Shown piece by piece: positions 23,896 to 41,642 of a DNA stretch of 64,000 nt. The DNA comes from Verrucomicrobiia bacterium (GTDB lineage Bacteria > Verrucomicrobiota > Verrucomicrobiia > Limisphaerales > UBA1100), in assembly GCA_014239365.1 (NCBI GenBank), contig JAAZZB010000044.1:259320-323319 (forward strand), written 5' to 3'. The position numbers were made by a program, and so were the translations under genes. Position 1 is the first letter of the stretch. Each line of letters starts with the position of its first letter. The notes under the pieces were generated by a model. The model searched no databases. It was given only the letters and a program-made list of their open reading frames with translations, and was not told where the DNA came from.

Positions 23896-23957
23896 GACAC
23901 GGATTTCACAGATTTTCACTGATTGATTCATCCGTGGAAATCTGTGAAATCCGTGTC
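23896..23957. repeat. Palindromic dispersed repeat (GACACGGATTTCACAGATT type)
   Basis: Perfect 19-bp arms, GACACGGATTTCACAGATT (23896-23914) and its complement (23939-23957), flank a 24-nt centre. The same arms recur at 26561-26622, so the two copies bracket the unknown gene at 24064. It lies 11 nt past the DUF1501 stop. Confidence 0.9.
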
Positions 23958-26560: not shown

Positions 26561-26622
26561 GACACGGATTTCACAGATTTTCACTGATTGTTTCATCCGT
26601 GGCAATCTGTGAAATCCGTGTC
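26561..26622. repeat. Palindromic dispersed repeat, second copy; contains stop of DUF2062 gene
   Basis: Arms 26561-26579 and 26604-26622 are the same 19-bp perfect complements as at 23896-23957. The stop codon and last residues of the minus-strand DUF2062 gene (end 26571) lie inside it. Confidence 0.9.
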
Positions 26623-31700: not shown

Positions 31701-31839
31701 GTGCTGCCGGCATCTTGCCGGCAGGCCGAAGGCTTCCGTTTTAACGCAGAGATTTTTCCATTTGGTTGGCTTCCCTCTTCCTCTGCGTTTTCAAAAACAT
31801 TCGTTCACCTCAAATCTGCCAGCAAGATGCCGGCAGCAC
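31701..31839. repeat. Palindromic repeat (CTGCCGGCATCTTGCCGGCAG type) between kinase and regulator
   Basis: The left arm 31701-31724 and right arm 31816-31839 are complementary with one mismatch. Each arm is itself nearly palindromic (GCCGGCATCTTGCCGGC). The same arms occur in a compact copy at 41577-41642. The right arm ends 7 nt before the ATG of the response regulator, where a ribosome-binding site would be expected. Confidence 0.9.
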
Positions 31840-33221: not shown

Positions 33222-33398
33222 CTACTCCGCCATCGCACGGCGCAGGATGATTTCCACATCAATCTCGTCGAAGCTGCCGGGGATGTTGCATTGGGGCAGC
33301 ACAAAATTCATCAGTTCCCAGCCTTCCGCGCCCAACACATTGAGTTTTTCCTCCGACACATCGGCGCGTTTAATCACATAGTATTCCCACTTCTGCAT
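33222..33398 (-). CDS. DUF4177-like small protein
   Basis: From ATG 33396-33398 the product is 58 residues: MQKWEYYVIKRADVSEEKLN, then LGAEGWELMNFVL, then a strand ending EIILRR. This is the DUF4177 pattern (W-E-Y at the start, G-GWELV in the middle). Function is unknown. It is convergent with the sigma-54 regulator, separated by one base. A related fragment of its first codons and upstream bases is found at 36206-36290. Confidence 0.75.
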   Translation of the reverse strand: MQKWEYYVIKRADVSEEKLNVLGAEGWELMNFVLPQCNIPGSFDEIDVEIILRRAMAE

Positions 33399-33481
33399 AG
33401 GCGGAGTGTAGCGGGTGCGGGCGGATTGGCCAGCAGATTTCCGGGAGACAAACCTCATCCAATGCAGTAAGATTTTCAGGC

Positions 33482-33981: not shown

Positions 33982-35247
33982 ATGGAAACGCAAACATCCA
34001 GCGCAGCCCACGAACGCAGTGGGCTTGCCACCGAAACGGCGGAGGTCATCGTGGCGGAGCCGTACGAATTTGTGCCGCCCAAGAGTGGCACGTTGGTGGC
34101 GCGATTGATGCAGCCGGTTTTGCCGCTGCAGTTGAAGCACGCTTGGGGGATCGTGGGGCACGAAGTGCGAGGCGCGGAAAAACTACGCGCCTCGCTGGCG
34201 GCGGGCCACGGCATTGTGCTCGCGCCCAATCACGTGCGCGATCCGGATGCGTTGGTGGTGGGTTTGCTCACGAAATACGTGGGGTCGCATTTTCATTTCA
34301 TGGCGAGTTGGCACGTGTTCAAGCAGGGCTGGTTTCAGCGATTTCTCGTGCGGCAGCTGGGTGCGTTCAGCGTGCATCGCGAGGGCTTGGACAAAACTTC
34401 GCTGAACACCGCCATCGATATTCTTGCCGAAGCGCGACGACCGCTGGTGTTGTTTCCCGAAGGCATCGTTTCGTTTCATAACGACCAACTCAGCCCTTTG
34501 CAGGAAGGCACCTCGCTGATCGTGCAGCGCGCGGCCAAAAAACGTGCGGCGAATGACGCGATAAAAAACGGCCAAGTGGTGGTGCATCCAGTGGCGCTCA
34601 AATACCAGTTCGCTGGGGATTTGGAGGCAACGCTTTCTGCCGCGCTGGCTAATCTCGAACGCGAGCTTTCGTGGGAACCGCAAACCGATTTATCGCCGTT
34701 GGATCGCGTGCGCAAAATTGGGACCGGCTTACTCGGCCTGCGCGAGGTGGAATATTTTGGCGAAGCGCAGAGCGGTGAACTCTTTGAACGGCTCGACCGC
34801 CTCATCAATCGCATTCTCGAACCCATCGAACAGGAATGGCAACGCCCCGGCGAAGGCCGCGGCGTGTACGAGCGGGTGAAGGCGCTCCGCACAGTGATGC
34901 TCAAAGAACTCGTGGACGGCAACGCCACAGCCGCCCGCCGCGAGCATTGCTGGAAACAACTGCGCGACTGCACCTTCGCCCTGCACCTCGGCGCGTATCC
35001 CGCCGATTATTTGGCTGCCGAGCCGTGCGTGGAGCGCCTCATCGAAACGGTGGAACGCTTCGAGCACGACTTCAAGTTCGTGGATCGCCATCGGCCGCAT
35101 CGTGTCGTCATTGAAATTGGCGACGCCATCGCCGTCCCCGCCCAACGCGACCGCACCGGCCCAAGCTTAATGGAAAAAATCGAGTCCTCGCTTTCAAGGC
35201 AATTAAAAAACTTGGCCACAGAACTGAATCAGCCCTTGCCCAAATGA
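33982..35247 (+). CDS. PlsC-type acyltransferase, long form
   Basis: The 421-residue protein has the 1-acylglycerol-3-phosphate acyltransferase motifs: NHVRDPD near residue 82 (HxxxxD), VHREG near 131, and LFPEGIVS near 157. These cover about residues 60-250. The remaining 170 residues are helical and unusual for PlsC, which averages about 250 residues in all. It has no membrane segment I can see. It probably acylates a lipid acceptor at the inner face of the membrane. The extra C-terminal domain may decide the acceptor. The stop is 15 nt before a palindromic repeat. Confidence 0.8.
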   Translation: METQTSSAAHERSGLATETAEVIVAEPYEFVPPKSGTLVARLMQPVLPLQLKHAWGIVGHEVRGAEKLRASLAAGHGIVLAPNHVRDPDALVVGLLTKYVGSHFHFMASWHVFKQGWFQRFLVRQLGAFSVHREGLDKTSLNTAIDILAEARRPLVLFPEGIVSFHNDQLSPLQEGTSLIVQRAAKKRAANDAIKNGQVVVHPVALKYQFAGDLEATLSAALANLERELSWEPQTDLSPLDRVRKIGTGLLGLREVEYFGEAQSGELFERLDRLINRILEPIEQEWQRPGEGRGVYERVKALRTVMLKELVDGNATAARREHCWKQLRDCTFALHLGAYPADYLAAEPCVERLIETVERFEHDFKFVDRHRPHRVVIEIGDAIAVPAQRDRTGPSLMEKIESSLSRQLKNLATELNQPLPK

Positions 35248-35262
35248 AACTCAACGCAGCTC

Positions 35263-35311
35263 TGTAGCCCGGGCCGGTGGCCCGGGGCCCGAACCACCGG
35301 TCCGGACTACA
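35263..35311. repeat. GC-rich palindromic repeat
   Basis: The left arm TGTAGCCCGGGCCGGTGG (35263-35280) is nearly complementary to the right arm CCACCGGTCCGGACTACA (35294-35311). It lies between the converging acyltransferase and TPR-like genes and overlaps the first bases of the latter's 3' end (stop at 35307-35309). Confidence 0.8.
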
Positions 35312-35798
35312 AAGATTCCCGCAAGGGCGCCAAGTCATCATCGTCCTTGGCCAATGCTTCCACGCGATCGCCTCCAACGGCGGTGGCGACTTCAAGTAAT
35401 CCGCGCGCTTCGGGTAGGCGATTCATTTGGCAAAGATAACAGGCTACATTATAGGGAATGAGCCATTCGTCAGGGAATTGCTCCACGCGCGGGGCGAGAA
35501 TGGCGTGCGCCTGCGTGATGCCGCCACCGGTACAACGGCGCGCGGCGTAGGCCCAATGCAACCATAAGCCAGACTCGGCTGGGTGGTGCGCGCATAACAC
35601 GCCCGCCAACGCTGCGGCATCGTCCCAATGCTTGGCAGCGATGAGGCAATCGAGCCGCGAAGCACGCACGGCGGGCAGGGATTGCTGCTCCACGGGAATG
35701 CGCGCGAGCTCGGCAAACGCCTCGGGCACATTGCCCAGCTCGATCCAGCCGAAGGCGGCTTTCACGTGATGTAACGCTGGGGGTTCGAGTGGATCCAC
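35307..35798 (-). CDS. TPR-like protein of unknown function
   Basis: The 163-residue protein starts at GTG (35796-35798). It consists of helix pairs of the tetratricopeptide kind: AAFGWIELGNVPEAFAEL, DCLIAAKHWDDAAALAG and YNVACYLCQMNRLPEARGLLE. There is no signal peptide, so it is cytoplasmic, and no other domain. TPR arrays usually bind partner proteins. The closing residues (DDDDLAPLRESL) run into the repeat at 35263-35311. It is divergent from the two-helix membrane protein at 35853. Confidence 0.7.
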   Translation of the reverse strand: MDPLEPPALHHVKAAFGWIELGNVPEAFAELARIPVEQQSLPAVRASRLDCLIAAKHWDDAAALAGVLCAHHPAESGLWLHWAYAARRCTGGGITQAHAILAPRVEQFPDEWLIPYNVACYLCQMNRLPEARGLLEVATAVGGDRVEALAKDDDDLAPLRESL

Positions 35799-35852: not shown

Positions 35853-36209
35853 ATGCAAATGCTGTGGCTAGCCAAAGGGAATGACGATTTGATTTTTATC
35901 ATCACACTGGTGGTGGTGTTGCTGGTGGTGATCGCGTATCTCGTGCTGGGGCGCGACGATACGATCGAGTTGATGGAGGAGGAGAGTGAGCCGGTGGATA
36001 TTGATGACCCGCAGTATCATGAAAAAGTGGTCCACCGACTGGATCGCACCAATGATTTACTGACGTCCATTCGCAATTCAATTTTGATATTTATTGTGAT
36101 TATTGTGCTGGTTCCGGTACTTTGGATGTTGCTGGTGAAGGGGTGTGAAGTGCCGAAAACGAAATCATCCGGACACGTATTAATTCATACGAACTCGTAC
36201 AATTCTTAA
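35853..36209 (+). CDS. Two-helix membrane protein, paralogue A
   Basis: The 118-residue protein has a hydrophobic segment at about 13-32 (LIFIITLVVVLLVVIAYLVL), an acidic linker (ELMEEESEPVDIDDPQYH) and a second segment at about 75-94 (ILIFIVIIVLVPVLWMLL) followed by a Cys. Its paralogue at 38242 has the same length without any gap. The first 180 nt of the two genes differ at 40 positions, whereas the next 148 nt differ at one. I do not recognise the family. The flat topology and acidic loop suggest a small membrane scaffold or regulator. Confidence 0.7.
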   Translation: MQMLWLAKGNDDLIFIITLVVVLLVVIAYLVLGRDDTIELMEEESEPVDIDDPQYHEKVVHRLDRTNDLLTSIRNSILIFIVIIVLVPVLWMLLVKGCEVPKTKSSGHVLIHTNSYNS

Positions 36210-36274
36210 TTTTTCAGATATTTTTTAAAAAAACCGCTTGCGCGCTTCACCACTTTGTATTCCCACTTCTGCAT
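36206..36274 (-). pseudogene. DUF4177-like N-terminal fragment
   Basis: Minus-strand codons from ATG 36272-36274 read MQKWEYKVVKRASGFF and then stop after 22 residues. The first seven codons and the bases before them resemble the DUF4177 gene start at 33398 (for example shared CGCCnATGCAGAAGTGGGAATA). The rest of the domain is missing. The tail (KRAS-FFKK) is also recognisable, out of context, after paralogue B near 38605-38635. It is either a remnant or a tiny gene. Confidence 0.45.
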
Positions 36275-36424
36275 GGGCGGAGTGTAGGCATCGGCAGTCT
36301 GACTGGCAATGCCATTGATGCTGTTGCCATCTCCCCGTTTCTCCCATTCTGGCCTTGTGGACGACGAACGGCCAATCGGCAAAAAAAGCCTGTAAAATGA
36401 TTAGAATTGTCGTAGCATTCCTTC

Positions 36425-38194
36425 ATGCAACAGGGATTGTGGACTTTTGGAACAGTAGTTTTGTGCGGATACCTTTGCTCAGGATTGTTGATCGCCGAAG
36501 AGCCACCGCAACTGCCGGGAAAAAAGGCGAATCCCAATAATCAGGCGCAACGCTCTCCGGAAGCCTTATTGATGGCCCAGTTCAAGGCGTTTGCAATTCG
36601 CAAGCGTGACTACATTAAGCAGCTATCGAAAGAGAATGATTTGTTGCTGCCGCCCGTCGTTAATGAATTCTTTGACGCTGCAATTGCCAGTAAATTTGCC
36701 CAGGCACAGAAGCATTACAAAATAATTCTGCAAATTCGCGGCCTGTCTGTAGACGAGCCATTTCCTGCTCCAAAAAAAATGCGGGAATCTGTGCAAAAAA
36801 GTTTCGCCCCAATACAAGAAGTGCTAGGCGGCATGGAGACGGTGGATTCGTGGCACGCAAAGTTCCTGCACTTTTACACAAAGGAAATTGTCAGCAGCAT
36901 TCCCAAGGGCAGCATTTATTTCGGCGGCACAGACCCGGGGCGTTTTGCCATCACGATGGGATGCAGCTCACACACCAAGGCGAACCCGTTTTTCACGGTC
37001 ACACAAAATGCACTAGCTGATGGCACTTATTTGCAATACTTAAGGGAACTGTACGGCAAACGCATTCACATTCCTTCAAGCAAAGACAATCAGGCAGCCT
37101 TCACTGATTATATGGAGCAAGCTAAACGGCGAATGTTTGCCGCCACGCTTGGACGCGACGAACAAATTTCACTCTTCTACACCTTTCAATGTCCCACAAA
37201 AAATTGCGTGGTTTCGACGAACGTGACCATCAATGCAACAGAACATGTCCGGTTGAAGCAGTTGGAAAAAGAAAAGGGCCTACCTTGTAAGATCTGCGGA
37301 AAGTTGATGCGGCAAATGGAGGAACCCCGTGTCAGTATATCCGGCACAGGTGCGATAATGGGTGTCAATGCGTTTCTGGCGAAAACACTTTTTGAAAAAA
37401 ACCCGGATCATAAATTCTACCTCGAAGAGAGCTTCGCGCTCGATTGGATGAAGCCGCATATGATTCCGCATGGGTTGATTTTCAAGTTGGAAAGAAAGCC
37501 GTTCAAGGAACTCCGTCCTGAACACCTCGCCCAAAGTCGGAAAGATTGGCAGAAATATATGGCGTTCTGCGTGGGGGACTCGGTGGTGAAACCGGAAACC
37601 ACCGTGGCGAAATTGTGCAAGTGGGTTGAGGCAATTTATATCAAGGGTGATCGCGGGGACTTCAAAGGCGACGCTTTGTATTTGAAAGGGAAGAAAGAGG
37701 TAATGGAAAAGTCTCCTTTTCAAAAAGGGGCACCTTTTAATGAGCAGAAAACATTCTCAAAAATGCGGAGTGACCAAGCGAGCCTGTTCGCTTGGCGACT
37801 AGCCAACACAAAAGATGAGAAGCTGAAAAAAGAATACGCCAGAGAGGCGGATTTCGCTTATCGGCAAGCCTTTGCCTTGGGCCCGATTAATCCGGAGGTT
37901 GCCTTTAGATACGTAGCTTTTCTCAATAACCAAGCCCGCTTTGAAGATGCCAAAATGATAGCGCGGGTGTTGGTGAAAATATATCCAAATCAAAACAAGG
38001 CGTGGGGCCAAAACTTGATGCTAAGAATCTTGACCCATGAGGAAATCCACTGGGCTAAAAAACAGGCCTTCAAAAAAGCACTCTCCGCAGCCCTTGCGCA
38101 AGCGAAGCTGAATCTAGGTCGCCCCGGCCTTCACGGCATCCAACAACGCATTCAATCTTACCGAAAGCTCATCGAGCAAAATGAGCCTCGCTGA
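36425..38194 (+). CDS. Secreted protein resembling the extracytoplasmic part of DUF2723 proteins
   Basis: The 589-residue protein has an N-terminal signal (TVVLCGYLCSGLL, possibly a lipobox) and no later membrane helices. Residues about 160-230 (GSIYFGGTDPGRFAITMGC, FFTVTQNALADGTYL, LYGKRIHIPS) and LEESFALDWMKPHMIPHGL near 343-361 resemble, as far as I recall, the soluble parts of Verrucomicrobia/Planctomycetes DUF2723 proteins. A C-P-x-x-x-C and C-K-I-C pair (about 259-297) could bind zinc. The end, about 450-589, is TPR-like. Base composition is more AT-rich than its neighbours. It is flanked by the two paralogous membrane genes. Function is unknown. Confidence 0.6.
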   Translation: MQQGLWTFGTVVLCGYLCSGLLIAEEPPQLPGKKANPNNQAQRSPEALLMAQFKAFAIRKRDYIKQLSKENDLLLPPVVNEFFDAAIASKFAQAQKHYKIILQIRGLSVDEPFPAPKKMRESVQKSFAPIQEVLGGMETVDSWHAKFLHFYTKEIVSSIPKGSIYFGGTDPGRFAITMGCSSHTKANPFFTVTQNALADGTYLQYLRELYGKRIHIPSSKDNQAAFTDYMEQAKRRMFAATLGRDEQISLFYTFQCPTKNCVVSTNVTINATEHVRLKQLEKEKGLPCKICGKLMRQMEEPRVSISGTGAIMGVNAFLAKTLFEKNPDHKFYLEESFALDWMKPHMIPHGLIFKLERKPFKELRPEHLAQSRKDWQKYMAFCVGDSVVKPETTVAKLCKWVEAIYIKGDRGDFKGDALYLKGKKEVMEKSPFQKGAPFNEQKTFSKMRSDQASLFAWRLANTKDEKLKKEYAREADFAYRQAFALGPINPEVAFRYVAFLNNQARFEDAKMIARVLVKIYPNQNKAWGQNLMLRILTHEEIHWAKKQAFKKALSAALAQAKLNLGRPGLHGIQQRIQSYRKLIEQNEPR

Positions 38195-38241
38195 TTGATG
38201 CGGCTTTGACATTGTAGCCTGAAATTTTTACGTTCGACCGC

Positions 38242-38598
38242 ATGCAACTCATCTTGCTGGCCGAGGGAAATGATGATCTGATTTTTATTGTCACGCTTGT
38301 GGTCGTCCTGCTGGTGGTGATCGCCTACCTTGTGCTGGGGCGTGATGATACTATTCAGGTGATGGAAGAAGAATCCGAGCCGACTGAAATTGATGACCCG
38401 CAGTATCACGAAAAAGTCGTGCACCGACTGGATCGCACCAATGATTTACTGACGTCCATTCGCAATTCAATTTTGATATTTATTGTGATTATCGTGCTGG
38501 TTCCGGTACTTTGGATGTTGCTGGTGAAGGGGTGTGAAGTGCCGAAAACGAAATCATCCGGACACGTATCATTTCATCCGAACACGTATGAATGTTAA
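38242..38598 (+). CDS. Two-helix membrane protein, paralogue B
   Basis: This is the second copy of the 118-residue protein. It differs from paralogue A mainly in its first residues (QLILLAEGN against QMLWLAKGN) and its last ten. Membrane segments, the acidic linker and the KGCEVPKTKSSGHV tail are the same. The 3' portion (38422-38569) is 147/148 identical in DNA to 36033-36180, while the 5' portion is only 78% identical, mostly at third codon positions. The upstream neighbour is the secreted DUF2723-like protein, 47 nt away. Confidence 0.7.
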   Translation: MQLILLAEGNDDLIFIVTLVVVLLVVIAYLVLGRDDTIQVMEEESEPTEIDDPQYHEKVVHRLDRTNDLLTSIRNSILIFIVIIVLVPVLWMLLVKGCEVPKTKSSGHVSFHPNTYEC

Positions 38599-38707
38599 TT
38601 TTTCTATTGTTTTTTAAAAAAATCACTTGCGCGCTTGCCCACCCTGTGGTAAGTAAAAGAAACCAAGGACGCAACTGACCAACCGACCCAACCAGTAAAC
38701 TAAGCAA

Positions 38708-39085
38708 GTGTCTCCCAACGTCGATAATATAGGTTCACCGCAAGGTGTCGCATTGCAGGCCATTCAGGCCCGGCAAGTGCGAGCGCGCGCCGTTGAGTCT
38801 GTTCCGGCACGGGAGCAGCAGTCCGAGGCCGTCCGCAGCACTGATCTTACCTCCTCGCGGGCCGTCCAACAGTTTTCAATGGCCGCACGGGTTGCCGCCG
38901 AGGAAGTCCCCGCGAATGATCCCATGAAGCCGGTGGCCGACGGCATCGCCGAAGACCTCAGCCGCACCGGCAACGATCCCTTCGAGGCCGTGGGAAAAAT
39001 CAACGACCTCCAAAACGCATTCAATTTCGCAATGGAAGCCAACGCCAACTTACTGGAAGACCCCGCCCTCGCCGCCCTCGCCTAA
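38708..39085 (+). CDS. Small Ala-rich protein of unknown function
   Basis: The 125-residue protein starts at GTG. It is rich in Ala, Arg and Glu, and is predicted to be helical, with sections such as VALQAIQARQVRARAVES and INDLQNAFNFAMEANANLLE. There is no signal peptide or membrane segment. I do not recognise a family. A clear terminator follows 25 nt after the stop and the gene stands alone, so it is probably expressed from its own promoter. The coding strand shows normal third-position GC bias, which supports it as a real gene. Confidence 0.6.
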   Translation: MSPNVDNIGSPQGVALQAIQARQVRARAVESVPAREQQSEAVRSTDLTSSRAVQQFSMAARVAAEEVPANDPMKPVADGIAEDLSRTGNDPFEAVGKINDLQNAFNFAMEANANLLEDPALAALA

Positions 39086-41576: not shown

Positions 41577-41642
41577 CGTGCTGCCGGCATCTTGCCGGCA
41601 GGCCCACCACGCAACTTCTGCCGGCAAGATGCCGGCAGCACG
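41577..41642. repeat. Palindromic dispersed repeat (CTGCCGGCATCTTGCCGGCAG type), compact copy
   Basis: Arms 41577-41601 and 41618-41642 are perfect 25-bp complements around a 16-nt centre. The arms match those at 31701-31839, where the centre is about 91 nt. Confidence 0.92.

Follow-up and report, generated by a model that had tools for sequence, protein, structure and literature searches.

A near-identical 148-bp tract in two diverged membrane-protein genes at a rearrangement breakpoint of a Verrucomicrobiia genome, probably left by recent gene conversion

The DNA analysed here, hereafter the window, is a stretch of 64,000 nucleotides on a 335-kb contig (JAAZZB010000044.1) of the Verrucomicrobiia assembly GCA_014239365.1. 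The source genome comprises 3.3 Mb in 89 contigs and is 94% complete, and this single genome represents its species in all comparisons. Two copies of a gene for a predicted membrane protein, G1 and G2, flank a long open reading frame (ORF) and are surrounded by genes and gene fragments belonging to two loci, A and B. The features of this region, in window coordinates, are as follows.

33222–33458, minus strand: intact DUF4177-like gene of locus A
33982–35247, plus strand: acyltransferase-like gene (named by sequence appearance), with which the left part of locus A ends ahead of the joint
35263–35312, no strand: REP-like palindrome at the acyltransferase/TPR joint, a joint common to the congener G005
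35307–35798, minus strand: TPR protein gene upstream of G1, the partner of the membrane gene in relatives
35853–36209, plus strand: G1, first copy, 118-residue predicted two-helix membrane protein
35853–36032, plus strand: diverged 5' part of G1, with 40 differences to 38242–38421
36033–36180, plus strand: putative conversion tract in G1 (nucleotides 181–328, residues 61–109, second hydrophobic helix)
36181–36247, plus strand: diverged 3' end and flank of G1, with 14 differences in 67 positions to 38570–38636
36206–36382, minus strand: ORF with a remnant of a DUF4177-like gene, its 5' half
36425–38194, plus strand: intact 589-residue ORF with a hydrophobic N-terminus
38242–38598, plus strand: G2, second copy, 118 residues
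38242–38421, plus strand: diverged 5' part of G2
38422–38569, plus strand: putative conversion tract in G2 (nucleotides 181–328)
38570–38636, plus strand: diverged 3' end and flank of G2; the flank is continuous with that of relatives
38708–39085, plus strand: D125, a 125-residue protein, the downstream neighbour of the membrane gene in relatives

Neither the membrane protein nor the 589-residue protein matched a Pfam or NCBIfam family above the cut-off, and the structure models of both are weak (mean pLDDT 57.7 and 52.4, respectively); that of the membrane protein has two long helices, predicted with low confidence. Comparison of the 589-residue protein with solved structures gave a weak TPR-type match and nothing else. 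Its middle and C-terminal parts match portions of proteins of about 1,000–1,800 residues in nearly all genomes of the order, and the ORF appears to contain a widespread uncharacterised domain that includes four cysteines with zinc-ribbon-like spacing.

G1 and G2, each 357 bp long, align without gaps, and our recount gave the numbers of the earlier note: 40 differences in nucleotides 1–180 (77.8% identity), followed by a single difference in nucleotides 181–328 (147 of 148 identical, 99.3%). The only difference within the tract, at nucleotide 252 (ATT/ATC), is synonymous. Most changes in the 5' part had also been described as synonymous, which holds for 24 of the 33 codons that differ there. 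The earlier note recognized one sharp boundary; it was correct on the left edge, between nucleotides 180 and 181, but missed an equally real right edge, also sharp, between nucleotides 328 and 329, where identity drops again. Nucleotides 329–357 contain eight differences, and homology extends past the stop codon as far as 36247/38636, adding six differences in 38 flanking bases. The divergence is 22% on the left of the tract and 21% (14 of 67) on its right, and the longest exact runs shared by the two copies are 71 and 76 bp.

A shared run of 76 bp is not expected by chance over the gene (permutation p = 1.4e-4). In a Sawyer-type test on 111 polymorphic sites, none of 100,000 shuffles produced the observed run, 35 polymorphic sites long with a single mismatch, and none of 14 other sequence pairs used as controls has such a run. 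The lowest p value among these controls, 0.009, belongs to the pair of G1 and the G005 copy, which has high identity in its first 90 nucleotides. Paralogues that are more alike inside a bounded tract than outside it, beyond chance, are a mark of ectopic gene conversion, and G1 and G2 have this property. Separately, the identity of G1 to the G005 copy (L017) is 94% over the first 90 nucleotides (35853–35942) and 80% over the next 90, a step that possibly records another, interspecies exchange.

The membrane gene is single-copy in four of the six other genomes of the genus, and both this gene and D125 are absent from the remaining two, G002 (93% complete) and G003 (59% complete). Further genomes of the family include five with a single copy (protein identity 53–60%) and one with a distant match, and a scan of the genome contigs gave no additional locus from the genus beyond those compared. 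Relatives with one copy each allowed the tract to be compared between species and the duplication to be dated relative to the tract. Inside the tract, the 99.3% identity of G1 and G2 compares with 89–91% to the orthologues, whereas in the 5' part their 77.8% compares with 82–89% between G1 and the relatives. The paralogues exceed the orthologues in identity within the tract and not in the remainder, as conversion would produce.

Synonymous divergence gives the same contrast as a difference in age. For G1 against G2, NG86 dS falls from 1.55 in the 5' part to 0.027 within the tract, whereas G1–G005 and G1–G006 give 0.42–0.52 in the 5' part and tract alike. Because the value for the two copies lies above that of the orthologues outside the tract and far below it inside, the copies appear to predate the species splits and to have been homogenised later. 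Phylogenies of the two parts, a check proposed in the earlier note, bore out this expectation in one direction. In the tract tree, zero branch length separates G1 from G2 (W1 and W2), and the tract data reject the 5' topology (p-AU 0.005). The 180-bp 5' part, where power is limited, disfavours the tract topology without rejecting it (p-AU 0.13). G1 and G2 are not sisters in the 5' tree, and forcing them together lowers lnL by 6.1, which is likewise not rejected (p-AU 0.14). In that tree the 5' segment of G2 clusters, with weak support, beside G001 (77% bootstrap). This segment (38242–38421) has 78–82% identity to the relatives, compared with 82–89% for G1, and carries 11 private changes. Its distance, although it lies beside D125 and would be the expected orthologue of the G005 gene, suggests fast evolution or a foreign origin.

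The neighbouring genes reveal how the two copies are placed. Locus B has the usual order [aminotransferase] – TPR(−) – membrane gene – D125; for its aminotransferase no orthologue was found in the source genome (best match 28%). Locus A has the order NtrC-type regulator – DUF4177(−) – (GYF) – acyltransferase – [589-residue homologue] – SGNH-type esterase, as read in G004 and, with variations, in G001, G002 and G012; the homologues of the 589-residue protein (53–56%) occur in locus A of G004 and G012, adjoining the SGNH-type esterase. In the window, the left part of A, up to the acyltransferase, is followed by the TPR gene and G1 from B, then by half a DUF4177-like gene and the 589-residue gene from A, and finally by G2 and D125 from B. 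The 5' side of G1 and its upstream TPR gene are ordered as in relatives, as is D125 downstream of G2; G1 has a native upstream and a novel downstream flank, and G2 the reverse. The flank of G1 meets the DUF4177 remnant within GCGCGCTT, at a joint that lies inside GCGCG(C/T)TT, found in both parents. The remnant (36240–36319) is 85–86% identical to the start of the gene in G001, G002, G003 and G005. Judged by eye, the spacer 3' of the 589-residue gene resembles the spacer that precedes the esterase and is joined at the start codon of G2.

Contig C64 carries a reciprocal join, in which the left part of B, up to the stop codon of an FG-GAP-like gene, is joined to the right part of A just before the esterase; it is matched by a single contig of G005 (85% over 3.25 kb). 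The left part of A in G005 is joined to a short TPR remnant that is 97% identical over 66 bp to the end of the window's TPR gene, compared with 82% for the intact TPR gene of G005 itself. Beside the acyltransferase of G005 (L017:11157–11852) stand this 28-residue TPR remnant and a truncated FG-GAP-like copy, with a longer FG-GAP-like copy on contig C20, a breakpoint duplication in a second species. G1 itself is absent from G005; the remnant shows that the TPR copy is old and bears only indirectly on the age of G1. These arrangements point to an exchange between A and B, by inversion or translocation, with flanking duplication, in an ancestor common to the source species and G005, probably followed by deletions that differ between the two lines. 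A tandem duplication running from the DUF4177-like gene to the membrane gene, with three deletions, would be one collinear path, not singled out by the data. To judge from gene order, the locus is a rearrangement breakpoint rather than a plain tandem pair.

Exactly at the A/B joint lies a GC-rich, REP-like palindrome of about 50 bp, GTAGCCCGGGCC...GGTCCGGACTAC, of which the genome contains some 50 copies. A second dispersed palindrome, ATTTCACGGATT...AATCCGTGAAAT, is found at the reciprocal join (L116:7217–7290, contig C64); similar inverted pairs occur in the window at 23902–23951 and 26567–26616, and several congeners contain it in both orientations. Facing pairs of a third dispersed inverted repeat, CTGCCGGCAAGATGCCGGC, lie at 31706–31834 and 41583–41636. 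It is conceivable, if rather unlikely, that the region is a recurrent exchange site, at which REP-like palindromes repeatedly join and duplicate both loci and the homology of the duplicates drives conversion; breakpoints would then seed mosaic genes.

The explanation that we prefer, with a probability of roughly 0.87, is an old duplication in the rearrangement, followed by a recent conversion patch between G1 and G2. It draws on the two-sided tract, the contrast in age, the single copy elsewhere and the joint common to G005; both the TPR remnant (TPR1) at the same joint in G005 and the dS of 1.55 outside the tract place the duplication before the tract. Pieces of the two loci would have been duplicated and joined by a chromosomal rearrangement in the ancestor common to G005, giving two paralogues that would then have diverged to about 22% (dS about 1.5). 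After the species split, RecA-type homologous recombination between direct repeats 2.4 kb apart would have copied a patch of at most 148 bp (nucleotides 181–328) from one copy to the other, making both identical, and one synonymous base (nucleotide 252) would have changed since. Direct repeats of about 400 bp, with 78% background identity and some exact runs, are possible RecA-dependent substrates, and a short conversion without crossover may be expected to leave a patch such as the one observed. We infer that the transfer was non-reciprocal and occurred by homologous recombination as a single event. Its consequence for the protein would be slight, because the orthologues already agree closely in residues 61–98.

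Two other origins were considered and set aside. For a foreign donor of the tract no candidate emerged: the source genome contains no third copy of the membrane gene, and no congener is much closer to the tract than the others. A simple recent tandem duplication is disfavoured by the divergence of G1 and G2 outside the tract, which exceeds that of the orthologues, and by the TPR1 joint common to G005.

A recent duplication of the whole gene could also have left the tract as an unreplaced rest, if DNA from a related species later replaced one 3' end as well as the 5' part of G2. The latter is indeed unusually far from all sampled copies, with its weak attraction to G001, and the upstream flank of G2 is non-native. 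However, replacement would have had to happen twice, separately to the left and to the right of the tract, and with matching divergence (22% and 21%). In addition, G005 already has a remnant of the TPR copy at this joint, which makes the duplication look old, and we consider the account quite improbable. Still harder to accept, and very improbable in our judgement, is a Campbell-like single-crossover integration of a circle carrying a foreign gene copy and the 589-residue gene, with the tract as a patch of heteroduplex or conversion where the crossover took place. This would distribute native and novel flanks over the two copies just as they are, but a rearrangement of two resident loci, common to G005, accounts for the joints and for the reciprocal join on C64, the pieces of the segment derive from the resident locus type A, and no apparent integrase or plasmid gene lies between the copies.

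The earlier note offered as its alternative to conversion the selection of a conserved RNA or protein site. An RNA element, an overlapping signal or a protein constraint might keep nucleotides 181–328 identical, and residues 61–98 are well conserved in the family. However, single-copy orthologues differ by 9–19% between species in exactly these 148 bp (81–91% identity, compared with 77–94% in the 5' part), and their third positions diverge as often in the tract as in the 5' part (pooled ratio 0.98, from pairs without G2). The low interspecies divergence of a conserved functional element is not seen, and selection for a conserved site fails for this reason. When the 5' divergence of G1 and G2 is scaled by the interspecies ratio, 29 differences are expected in the tract and one is observed (binomial P about 4e-13); for third positions only, the figures are 22 and one (P 1e-11). 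These values support the recent conversion tract, 36033–36180 with 38422–38569, that had been proposed from the window alone. A constraint peculiar to the source species would be all that remains of selection, and we attach hardly any probability to it. Assembly collapse or a chimera, raised earlier as a possible cause of the identity and thinkable in a metagenome-type assembly of 89 contigs, is very unlikely, because no exact shared run exceeds 76 bp, so that these runs fall below usual read lengths, one difference is retained inside the tract, and the copies have distinct flanks on a 335-kb contig.

A recent conversion between G1 and G2 would represent a datable homologous exchange between paralogues 22% diverged, in an uncultured lineage that has no genetics. 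It is also a warning that different histories are combined in trees of such genes, and the common A/B joints are a firm synapomorphy of two species of the genus. The case is of modest interest as ordinary biology, and general understanding is unchanged by it.

In Mycobacterium tuberculosis, gene-conversion hotspots show clustered substitutions matching a paralogue within paralogous regions, as here (PMC13061034); unlike those hotspots, the present case concerns one genome and has no sign of recurrent or diversifying conversion. Interlocus gene conversion in duplicated genes is likewise recognized from GENECONV-type runs of identity, and mean tract lengths in a review are 200–300 bp in yeast and 287–296 bp in hamster (PMC3924818); our upper bound of 148 bp is of similar order, although it comes from a prokaryote, one event and one genome. 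In Salmonella tufA/tufB, conversion tracts are mostly contiguous and mismatch repair affects their length (PMC5485169). As in that system, a patch of one paralogue would have been overwritten by the other copy in a contiguous tract with unchanged flanks. Unlike tufA and tufB, G1 and G2 are about 22% diverged outside the tract, form direct repeats separated by 2.4 kb and are not known to be dose-critical, and their conversion is read from sequence, whereas the tufA/tufB events were selected in the laboratory. Gene conversion between paralogues is well known, and G1 and G2 are a clean case of it through their two-sided tract and common breakpoint.
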